Source: Bacteroidota bacterium (GTDB lineage Bacteria; Bacteroidota; Rhodothermia; Rhodothermales; JAHQVL01). From it: a DNA stretch of 41,306 nt. The first letter of the stretch is position 1, and every line of letters starts with the position of its first letter. The translations under genes and the position numbers were made by a program. Below, piece after piece: positions 33,555-37,495 of the stretch. The stretch spans positions 1 through 41,306 of the forward strand of contig JBCCIM010000032.1 of the NCBI GenBank assembly GCA_039111535.1, read 5' to 3'. Under the pieces are notes generated by a model. The model was not told the DNA's origin. It saw only the letters and a list, made by a program, of their open reading frames with translations, and did not search any database.

Positions 33555-34316
33555 ATGACCTACACCAAGTACGCAGACCTGAACGATGCCGTAGTACTGA
33601 TCACCGGTGGCGCCTCAGGTATCGGAAGAGATATCGCAGACGCCTTTGCAGCGCAATCCGCCCGGATTGGTATTCTGGATATCGACGAAGTAAACGGACA
33701 GGTTACCGAAGCAGCGTTAACAGCAGCCGGCTGCACGGCAAAGTTTGTTGCCTGCGACCTGCGCAACATCAGCGCGCTGGAAGCAGCAGTCGCAACGCTT
33801 GAGCAGGACCTCGGCGCCGCAACAGTATTGGTTAATAACGCAGCCCGTGATGACCGGCATGGATGGGAAGACGTCACAGAAGCCTATTACGATGAGCGCA
33901 TAGCAACCAACCTCCGGCATATGTTTTTTGCTACGAAAGCTGTAGCACCGGGCATGATTGCAGCCGGCGGCGGCTCCATCATCAACATGGGATCCAACTC
34001 CTGGTGGGAAGCGGCCGGTGGCTTCCCGGTTTACACAACCGCAAAAGCCGCAATACACGGTATGACCCGGTCCTTTGCACGTGACCTTGGCAAACATCAC
34101 ATCCGCGTGAATACGGTTGTACCGGGTTGGATTATGACGGACCGGCAAAAAGAGCGCTGGGTTACCCCGGAGTCCCTTGCCCGACACCTTGAGCGGCAAT
34201 GCCTGCCCACTCCTATCGACCCGCATTATGTGGCGAGGATGGTGCTTTTCCTGGCATCAGGTGACGCAGCCATGTGTACAGCTCAAAACTACATGGTCGA
34301 CGCCGGCTCGATTTGA
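33555..34316 (+). CDS. Short-chain dehydrogenase/reductase (SDR)
   Basis: Classical SDR of 253 residues that oxidises or reduces an alcohol or ketone with NAD(P). Cofactor motif TGGASGIG at 17-24; NNAARD in the middle; catalytic Ser of GSNSWW; Tyr160 and Lys164 in YTTAK; then the usual PGWIMTD and the C-terminal FLASGDAAMCTAQNYMVDAG. The Asp in LDIDEV after the second strand suggests NAD preference. It is the last gene of the plus-strand run before the repeat-containing gap and probably shares its transcript. Confidence 0.94.
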   Translation: MTYTKYADLNDAVVLITGGASGIGRDIADAFAAQSARIGILDIDEVNGQVTEAALTAAGCTAKFVACDLRNISALEAAVATLEQDLGAATVLVNNAARDDRHGWEDVTEAYYDERIATNLRHMFFATKAVAPGMIAAGGGSIINMGSNSWWEAAGGFPVYTTAKAAIHGMTRSFARDLGKHHIRVNTVVPGWIMTDRQKERWVTPESLARHLERQCLPTPIDPHYVARMVLFLASGDAAMCTAQNYMVDAGSI

Positions 34317-34664
34317 GTGCCGAATTAAGGATTTAAATGGTAGTCGCGAGAGCCCTCATGCCCAGCTTGACCAACGTCACGACCTCGACGGTCATACCCC
34401 AGCTTGTCCACCGTCACTCCCAGACCGTCATACCCAGCTTGACGGGACGAAGAGTCATGACGGTTGTGGTAAACGAATGAATGCGTACAGGCAACCCGGC
34501 AAGACAAAGCAGCAACACCATTTCAGGGCAAATCTGCTGCGCATAGAAACCAACACACCCATTCCCCTTACAACAAACAACGTCCTGTATCAGAACTGAC
34601 GCAATGATCAAAGGCAGCCCGCTTTGCGTGCGCGACTGGTCGTCTTTGTTGTGTTCTCAAGCTC
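34317..34664. other. Intergenic region carrying dispersed and tandem repeats
   Basis: A 348-bp noncoding stretch. It begins with a GAGTGCCGAATTAAGGAT fragment like those near 8361 and 22003, continues with the 36-bp tandem array at 34356-34463, and ends in unremarkable sequence before the next gene. An open frame across it has repeat-derived sequence only and is not a gene. Confidence 0.6.
34356..34463. repeat. Three-copy 36-bp tandem repeat with REP-like core
   Basis: Units begin at 34356, 34392 and 34428 (exact 36-bp period). Cores are TCATGCCCAGCTTGACC, TCATACCCCAGCTTGTCC and TCATACCCAGCTTGACG; the first two also share GTCAC or CGTCAC downstream. The core matches the palindromic unit at 37351-37378. 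Copies are degenerate outside the core. Confidence 0.75.
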
Positions 34665-35840
34665 ATGCATCTGGCCCGTCCCTCAATAGCCCTGTCTTGT
34701 AGTCTGTTGGCGCTCTTTTTCACGATGTGGATTCTCGTGCCGGCGCCATTGACCGTCATTTGGCTAGTCTCCGTTATTTCCAGCGAGTGGAGCCTCTTTT
34801 TTGGCTTACTTGCACTCATAGGTATTGTGCTTGGCTGGCTTGCAAACCGTAAACAACGGTCGCGGGCAGGCACCTTTGCAGCTGCCTGCGGGATGCTCGC
34901 CATGGTGTTCATGAGCTACCCCCTGGTCACCAGCCTCTCGGTAGCAGACAACAACGATGTTTCGCTGTCCCTAAAACGCTATGTTCTGGGCAGTGCGTAC
35001 GAAAAAGCTGCAATCCAATCATATAGTTATACAGCAACCGCCACTGATACCTTCTTCCTCGACGCCTATCAGCCCAATGACGTGTCATCACATGTGCCCA
35101 AACCTGCGATTGTCGTGATCCACGGCGGTGGATGGAGCAGTGGAACGCGAAGTGATTTCCCACGCTGGAATCACTGGCTTGTCGAATCAGGCTATGTTGT
35201 GTTTGACATCGACTATCAGCTTGCTCCGCAACCCAATTGGCAGGCTGCTACTGCTAACGTACAAGACGCAGTTAAGTGGATCAAGGCGCATGCCGACAGC
35301 TTCAACGTTAACCCCAACAGCATTGCGCTCATGGGCCGCTCTGCCGGCGCACACCTCGCGTTGCTTGCCGGGTACACAGCTCGGCCAGAGGCACCTTACG
35401 ACGCCCGTGTAGCCGCTATCGTCGGCTTCTATGGGCCAACAGATCTACGGTGGGGTTATGAGAATCCGGCTAACAGGCGCGTTATCGATGGTAAAGCCAC
35501 CCTGCGAAGTTTTACCGGGGGGACACCCAACTACATTCCCGAGATTTACCAGCAGGCTTCACCTATACACCAGATCCGATCTGATGCACCGGCAACGTTT
35601 CTGGTACACGGCCGGCAGGATCAGTTGGTGCGCAGCCAGCACACGGCTAAACTCTACCGGAGGCTGCAATTAAGAAGCAGGGAGCCGGCTACCCACCAGG
35701 CCCTTTTCCTTCCTTATGCACAGCACGGGTTTGATTACAACTTTAACGGTTGGGGCTCACAGATCACACAGGCTTTGCTTACAACCCATCTCCAGCAGGC
35801 GCTCACGCCGCGTGTATCGCGCGCAGCACCAGCGCCCTGA
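34665..35840 (+). CDS. Membrane-anchored alpha/beta hydrolase, carboxylesterase-like
   Basis: Hydrolase of 391 residues with a membrane part and a catalytic domain. Residues about 1-55 and 70-95 contain hydrophobic helices (SCSLLALFFTMWILV, FFGLLALIGIVLGW), so the enzyme is anchored in the inner membrane. The catalytic domain, from about 120, is of the hormone-sensitive-lipase/BD-FAE type: oxyanion HGGGW at 153-157, nucleophile GRSAGAH with Ser226, acid in HGRQDQLV and His in QHGFDYN. The VFDIDYQLAPQPNW segment is also characteristic. Its 3' end overlaps the convergent DUF4202 gene by 38 bp. Confidence 0.9.
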   Translation: MHLARPSIALSCSLLALFFTMWILVPAPLTVIWLVSVISSEWSLFFGLLALIGIVLGWLANRKQRSRAGTFAAACGMLAMVFMSYPLVTSLSVADNNDVSLSLKRYVLGSAYEKAAIQSYSYTATATDTFFLDAYQPNDVSSHVPKPAIVVIHGGGWSSGTRSDFPRWNHWLVESGYVVFDIDYQLAPQPNWQAATANVQDAVKWIKAHADSFNVNPNSIALMGRSAGAHLALLAGYTARPEAPYDARVAAIVGFYGPTDLRWGYENPANRRVIDGKATLRSFTGGTPNYIPEIYQQASPIHQIRSDAPATFLVHGRQDQLVRSQHTAKLYRRLQLRSREPATHQALFLPYAQHGFDYNFNGWGSQITQALLTTHLQQALTPRVSRAAPAP

Positions 35841-37335: not shown

Positions 37336-37350
37336 CGAGTTTGGCACACT

Positions 37351-37456
37351 GTCATCCTCAGCTTGACTGGGGATCCACAGGTATGGCAATCGCTATTAGA
37401 TGCACACTGTAGACTTGTGCCATCCCGGTGGATGCCCAATCAAGTTGGGCAGGACG
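37351..37456. repeat. Inverted pair of REP-like palindromes
   Basis: First unit 37351-37378: TCCTCAG-CTTGA-CTGGGGA hairpin followed by TCCAC. Second unit 37428-37456 is on the opposite strand: its complement reads TGCCCAA-CTTGA-TTGGGCA followed by TCCAC. The two match at 22 of 28 positions and share the CTTGA loop, with 49 bp between them. The layout is that of a bacterial interspersed mosaic element between purU and the convergent membrane protein; either hairpin could also end transcription. Confidence 0.8.
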
Positions 37457-37495
37457 TGTGAGATGTAAATTCGACGCACGGAAAACCCACATCAA

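Follow-up and report, generated by a model that had tools for sequence, protein, structure and literature searches.

The window, which is the whole stretch of 41,306 nucleotides analysed, contains a short tandem array in the 348-bp intergenic gap at 34317-34664. The array units and the genes on either side are as follows:

33555..34316, plus strand: upstream ORF, which we take to be a short-chain dehydrogenase/reductase; DNA match of 72% in a genome of the same family (G002)
34356..34391, plus strand: array unit 1, consisting of the REP left half TCATGCCCAGCTTGAC and 20 bp; nhmmer E 0.005, profile positions 3-17
34392..34427, plus strand: array unit 2, a left-half core with one extra C (TCATACCCCAGCTTGTC) followed by unit-1-like sequence; found by TRF, with a weak profile match (E 4)
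34428..34463, plus strand: array unit 3, the best-preserved half-REP, with the CGTC tag from 34426, left arm, loop, and GGG; nhmmer match at 34426-34446, E 1.8e-4
34665..35840, plus strand: downstream ORF, presumably an alpha/beta hydrolase

The three cores (TCATGCCCAGCTTGAC at 34356, TCATACCCCAGCTTGTC at 34392, and TCATACCCAGCTTGAC at 34428) lie where a sequence-only reading had placed them, and the tandem-repeat analysis that it proposed recovers the array with a TRF score of 109 (period 37; 2.5 copies; 5% indels). All other TRF rows in the window score 42 or less, and none of 1000 dinucleotide-preserving shuffles of the gap reaches 109 (shuffle maximum, 67). The exact 36-bp period described in the same reading survives in part. 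The array is real and its TCAT motifs are spaced at 36 and 36 bp, but CCCAGCTTG is spaced at 37 and 35, because unit 2 has an extra C, and TRF calls a period of 37. Compared without gaps over 36 positions, units 1 and 2 are identical at 17, units 1 and 3 at 22, and units 2 and 3 at 16. The likeness between units 1 and 2 across positions 17-36 exceeds chance (22 of 2000 shuffles equally good); for the two pairs with unit 3 it does not clearly do so (190 and 367 of 2000 shuffles), and what follows the half-REP of unit 3 has no clear likeness to the other two units.

Paired exact CCCARCTTG cores, 12-42 bp apart, match twice in the 6.59-Mb genome, both times in the array, and the reversed-pattern control matches nowhere in that genome. 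Among 60 genomes including this one, the pattern CCCARCTTG-N12-42-CCCARCTTG occurs in 6, with one match in each of the other five; here the reversed-pattern control matches in 5 genomes. The surrounding DNA (33900-35300, comprising the gap and DNA of both neighbour genes) has matches in 4 of the 60 genomes, this one included, and no other genome matched over both genes. In G002 the matching neighbour gene adjoins a sulfatase-like ORF.

CRISPR arrays have near-identical repeats and unique spacers. The units here are degenerate, with 16-22 of 36 positions identical in ungapped comparison, which supports the earlier judgement that the array is not a CRISPR. A coding repeat was also weighed and set aside; short frames pass through the array. 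Structured RNA was considered as its identity and rejected: no Rfam family matches the array at gathering score, and single-strand folds are unremarkable (RNA z 0.50; DNA z -1.88).

The genome contains a palindromic repeat, GTCATNCCCARCTTGAYTGGGNATCCAC, in 47 copies at two or fewer mismatches of the 27-base form (control, 0). Fetched loci yielded 46 distinct copies at four or fewer mismatches, a few of which have another core. The stem is ATNCCCAR/YTGGGNAT, the loop CTTGA, and the tail CCA, with the eight stem pairs kept in 89-100% of the 46 copies. The variable N-N pair appears as A-T, T-A, G-C, C-G, and G-T, and the loop-closing pair as A-T (30 copies) or G-C (16 copies). The stem pairs covary, and therefore it is pairing, not sequence, that is kept. 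At a dozen or so loci, inverted mates lie about 77 bp apart on opposite strands; other copies are single or in direct order. By inspection, most pairs combine an A form (CAGCTTGACTG) with a B form (CAACTTGATTG). The only full palindrome copies in the window are an inverted pair:

37350..37377, plus strand: complete REP, A form (CAGCTTGACTG loop region), matching TCATCCTCAGCTTGACTGGGGATCCAC with one mismatch
37378..37428, no strand: spacer of the inverted REP pair, within 37345-37460
37429..37456, minus strand: complete REP of the B form (CAACTTGATTG loop region), paired with the A form; profile match

The segment 37345-37460 folds as DNA with a z of -4.59, against -1.88 for the array.

CGTC REPs, as the consulted part of Di Nocera et al. 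2013 (PMC3733652) defines them, have a CGTC tag (often TGTC or CCTC), an 8-9 bp stem starting from AT, a 4-5 nt loop, and a CCA tail. They are mostly inverted dimers, heterodimers being common in some families, and the same part of the paper equates some of them with neisserial dRS3 and rickettsial RPE-4/RPE-6. The family in this genome and window fits that class. Most of the 46 copies start GTCAT after a C, and the window's A copy has TGTC; stem, loop, and tail agree in the window pair and in the genome family; and 37350 (plus) with 37429 (minus) forms an inverted dimer. The window's exact A-form REP is also present in three stretches from two other species among genome contigs. It occurs in Paraferrimonas sedimenticola (L091), where it adjoins REPs with a TTCCCGCGAAAGCGGGAA core.

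The array cores are left halves of this palindrome. An nhmmer profile of length 28, built from 33 distinct REP sequences of the genome, matches unit 3 over profile positions 1-21 (34426-34446, E 1.8e-4) and unit 1 over positions 3-17 (34356-34370, E 0.005), so that the description of the core as REP-like proved correct; the match to unit 2 (34391-34406, positions 2-16) is not significant at E 4. When only the left half is used for scanning, units 3 and 1 rank alongside complete REPs; when only the right half is used, the best eight positions include none from the array. From the profile and half-scan results it follows that the array is built of REP left halves. Tag, left arm, and loop are found in units 3 and 1, and in unit 2 at E 4 only. 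The complete palindrome is not: profile matches end at positions 17, 16, and 21 of 28 in units 1, 2, and 3, and the right arm is absent, unit 3 retaining no more than a few of its bases. The proposal that one palindrome had been duplicated in tandem thus needs amending. Duplication is supported for units 1 and 2, and the units as they now stand are half-palindromes without the right arm.

Could the units have arrived separately? Three independent insertions, or chance similarity, would fit a unit 3 that is clearly like the others only in its core, and core spacings that are unequal (37 and 35). That account is very improbable given that no shuffle in 1000 attains the TRF score, that the resemblance of units 1 and 2 extends beyond the core, and that three units share one orientation and all are without the right arm. 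Still less probable is a function for the array as an operator or RNA element, such as a set of regularly spaced protein-binding sites. Spacing of 35-37 bp in an intergenic gap is what such an element might show. However, the paired cores are unique in the genome, the units are degenerate, both fold scores are unremarkable, and the core matches a genome-wide palindrome family. The array is very likely a half-REP relic of CGTC-class REPs, and in itself it is ordinary.

The more general matter is how the parent family spreads. The part of PMC3733652 consulted reports no tyrosine transposase gene flanked by CGTC repeats, says that a dedicated transposase is absent, and leaves their mover open. 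GTAG REPs are thought to be mobilised by RAYT, a Y1 HUH transposase, and the same could be supposed here: the genome has one RAYT-like gene (58.6 bits, below the cut-off of 80), and the same-family genome G001, with 35 REP copies at two or fewer mismatches, has a strong RAYT gene (187 bits). Against this, the genome has no PF01797 match; both RAYT loci scanned are without such a REP, the G001 locus being only 2089 bases long; and the family's tag is CGTC, for which the passages cited from PMC3733652 know no flanked tyrosine transposase gene. RAYT was therefore rejected as the mobiliser, with no PF01797 match and a single weak NF047646 locus lacking the REP; we regard it as quite unlikely. The arrangement of GTAG REPs around a RAYT gene (the REPtron) is likewise not what this genome holds. 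The RAYT-like gene, on contig C47 (L117), has a 17-nt inverted repeat just beyond its end, and the window's REP is absent there. The 35 REP copies of G001 are a sister form of the window's family (L096, L099, L101, and L103-L106; RAYT locus, L112).

A different enzyme does lie among these repeats. The genome has five PF01541 matches (three short frames and two long), none of them on the window's contig. The short gene on contig C38 encodes a GIY-YIG nuclease (PF01541, 56 bits) and has inverted REPs of the window's family on both sides, in the form of flanking tandem REP arrays of opposite orientation (L047 1386-1757 and 2071-2362; 113 bp x 3.3 and 104 bp x 2.8). The GIY-YIG gene on C48 also has inverted REPs on both sides, of another type with a GCCGGACTTGATCCGG core (L118 1407-1807). 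The sequence GTCATGCCGGACTTGAT recurs many times in the genome. The third short gene, on C85 (L120, about 1490-1825), has an internal TAG stop, and the detector finds no clear REP of this kind beside it. It is followed by a different palindrome, visible by eye. Y18, G20, R28, H32, E65, and N84 are invariant in 10 aligned short GIY-YIG proteins, and these we take to be residues with a catalytic role in GIY-YIG proteins. A PDB sequence search with the GIY-YIG protein gave no match at E <= 0.001.

The C38 protein finds matches in 100 of 198 genomes of the phylum at E <= 1e-8. The survey loci were 30 returned directly, 60 regions from listed rows (not every row, and with most of those containing internal stops left out), and the genome's own 2. 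They comprise 96 tblastn hits in 92 loci, of which 3 without flanking sequence were set aside, leaving 93 (92 distinct, from 55 genomes). The control was 657 ORFs of at least 80 aa, taken from 35 of the 55 genomes (40 stretches of 20 kb).

A strict CGTC-class REP lies within 250 bp of 73 of the 92 GIY-YIG genes, against 32 of 657 control ORFs; the genes were chosen for their likeness to the C38 protein, which had drawn attention through the REPs around its gene. An enzyme gene bordered by the family's inverted repeats, as seen here at C38 and C48, has many parallels: 55/92 GIY-YIG genes have strict REPs on both sides within that distance, against 2/657 controls. Tags point outward on both sides in 39 of 92 (controls, 2 of 657; Fisher p 4e-37 with genes treated as independent) and inward on both sides in 19 of 92 (controls, 1 of 657). 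No strict hit lay within 250 bp of 19 of the 92 genes, by a detector that misses variants (C48, and by eye Novosphingobium and the right side of Sinorhizobium meliloti among the plasmids described below). Restricted to the 71 survey genes of the 35 control genomes, the counts are 40 with REPs on both sides, 30 outward, and 14 inward. A laxer detector classed the nearest REPs as out/out at 33 genes, in/in at 11, and mixed at 14. Beside short GIY-YIG genes (about 95 aa), then, the tag most often points outward.

Comparison of flanks agrees. Inverted similarity between left and right flanks (score >= 16) appears in 83/93 cases, against 203/930 mismatched pairs and 20/91 outer flanks. Direct-orientation similarity is nearly as common (75/93, against 225/930 mismatched pairs) because REPs come in groups. 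Between cassette copies, similarity stops within 4 nt of the outer edge of the left REP in 165 of 337 pairs, but of the right REP in only 37 of 332; some copies share sequence past the REP. The association of REPs with GIY-YIG genes is almost certainly real.

Moreover, the REP type follows the enzyme. REP and nuclease distances correlate with a Mantel rho of 0.49 when all pairs are taken and 0.48 for pairs between genomes (p 0.001, 75 genes); over 45 within-genome pairs rho is 0.78, with a p-value that treats pairs as independent. Shared descent of whole cassettes may explain part of this covariation.

Short REP pairs, in turn, look like gene-less versions of GIY-YIG cassettes. Compared with the inner end of the C38 cassette, 16 A-form REPs differ at 3-10 of 18 positions (Hamming distance; shuffled mean, 13.6) and 27 B-form REPs at 6-14 of 18. 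The C38 palindromes have a B-type core, though their inner end resembles A forms. In a scan of 16 other REP-bearing loci (the three exact A-form stretches and 13 REP loci of related genomes), one holds a GIY-YIG gene. On a Staskawiczbacteria contig, a GIY-YIG gene whose product is 54% identical to the C38 protein lies between outward REPs of another type.

The association extends to plasmids. A plasmid collection gave 33 records with a match, of which 12 were taken and searched with the laxer detector over 250 bp. REPs were found on both sides of the GIY-YIG gene in 7 of the 12 (Azospirillum lipoferum, Planktothrix agardhii, Neisseria gonorrhoeae, Shinella, Sphingobium, Aeromonas caviae, and Neorhizobium), on one side in 3 (Sinorhizobium meliloti, Photobacterium, and Spirosoma), and on neither in 2 (Rhizobium tumorigenes, and Novosphingobium, whose variant palindrome can be made out by eye). 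On the Planktothrix plasmid (L257), the REP-bordered gene lies between an MmeI-type enzyme gene and DISARM drmA.

Some of these sites can be compared with relatives that lack the gene. In A. lipoferum 4B the gene and its REPs lie between sufB and sufC; in three fetched Azospirillum sister replicons, the sufB-sufC gap has neither the gene nor, by the detector, a REP. In Sphingobium TomTYG46 the order REP-gene-REP lies between fnrL and a response regulator gene. TomTYG64 and TomTYG74 lack the gene and have at the same site one symmetric palindrome, approximately the TomTYG46 site minus the stretch between its two 8-bp arm copies; TomTYG72 and TomTYG65, also without the gene, have no such palindrome there. 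The Shinella sequences are too diverged for placing ends.

These sites bear on whether the nuclease is mover or passenger. A free-standing, homing-type nuclease might settle in REPs as harmless sites while the REPs spread by other means. GIY-YIG enzymes do include homing endonucleases, according to the portion of PMC1564403 consulted, and the single palindrome of TomTYG64 and TomTYG74 beside the REP-gene-REP of TomTYG46 is what insertion into a palindrome, or loss from one, would be expected to leave. But at sufB-sufC the three Azospirillum sister replicons have neither the gene nor the REPs; nuclease sequence and REP type go together both inside genomes and between them, to which shared cassette descent could add; and A-form REP pairs have inner-end sequence in common with the C38 cassette. 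Passenger status is possible, and on this evidence unlikely.

The evidence leans instead, if not heavily, towards GIY-YIG nucleases mobilising REPs. Counting against it are the choice of survey genes by likeness to the C38 protein, the genes with no strict REP hit or with inward tags, the flank similarity in direct orientation, the uneven ends of similarity between cassette copies, the B-type core of the C38 palindromes, the single GIY-YIG gene among 16 other REP-bearing loci, the R. tumorigenes gene without REPs, the weak RAYT-like gene, and the lack of a PF01541 match on the window's contig. From these comparisons we infer that REPs are acted on by the nuclease, and also the manner of their movement and the origin of the array. 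The nuclease would cut its own REP palindrome once this is extruded as a hairpin or cruciform, and repair or re-joining would then copy the REP-bounded DNA elsewhere, with or without the gene. At the array, the left half of a REP (its tag, left arm, and loop, without the right arm) may have undergone one or more tandem duplications before drifting. With the right arm gone, the REP hairpin cannot form; a half-REP unable to fold would be no substrate for the nuclease and would remain as a fossil.

This suggests that the array is a fossil made of REP halves, and that GIY-YIG nucleases probably mobilise the family to which these belong; the parent family, in other words, is probably not an orphan. 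A broader proposal is finely balanced: short GIY-YIG nucleases may be the missing dedicated mobility enzymes of CGTC REPs, the two together making up a class of mobile elements across bacterial phyla that is parallel and unrelated to RAYT and GTAG REPs, with gene-less pairs as non-autonomous offspring and half-REP arrays as fossils. An enzyme gene bordered by CGTC repeats of a type that tracks the enzyme makes the question of the REP mover testable. If the proposal is true, small repeats can spread by means of a nuclease, without a classical transposase. The gain from the array itself is modest: it illustrates one way in which such repeats decay. Among the matches listed by a literature search, no paper tied GIY-YIG genes to REPs, most subscription papers and bioRxiv preprints being outside the coverage of that search.

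Three known systems offer comparison. The genome's family resembles the CGTC REPs, as characterised in the part of PMC3733652 consulted, in its CGTC-type tag, 8-bp stem from AT, 5-nt loop, CCA tail, and two-form inverted dimers. The array departs from that description in having only left halves in direct tandem; in the same part of the paper, HT dimers are negligible and grouped elements rare among CGTC REPs. The short GIY-YIG genes flanked by such repeats are a further departure from what is described there. Free-standing GIY-YIG homing endonucleases share the nuclease superfamily and the existence of sites with and without the gene. Known members copy themselves into the cognate uninterrupted site (PMC1564403), whereas the REP-flanked genes are bordered by multi-copy palindromes. 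The REPtron of RAYT and GTAG REPs differs in its enzyme, a Y1 HUH transposase rather than a GIY-YIG nuclease, and in its tag, and mobility in the present case is putative. Its architecture, however, is the same: a gene bordered by the repeat, gene-less pairs as well, and a repeat type that tracks the enzyme.
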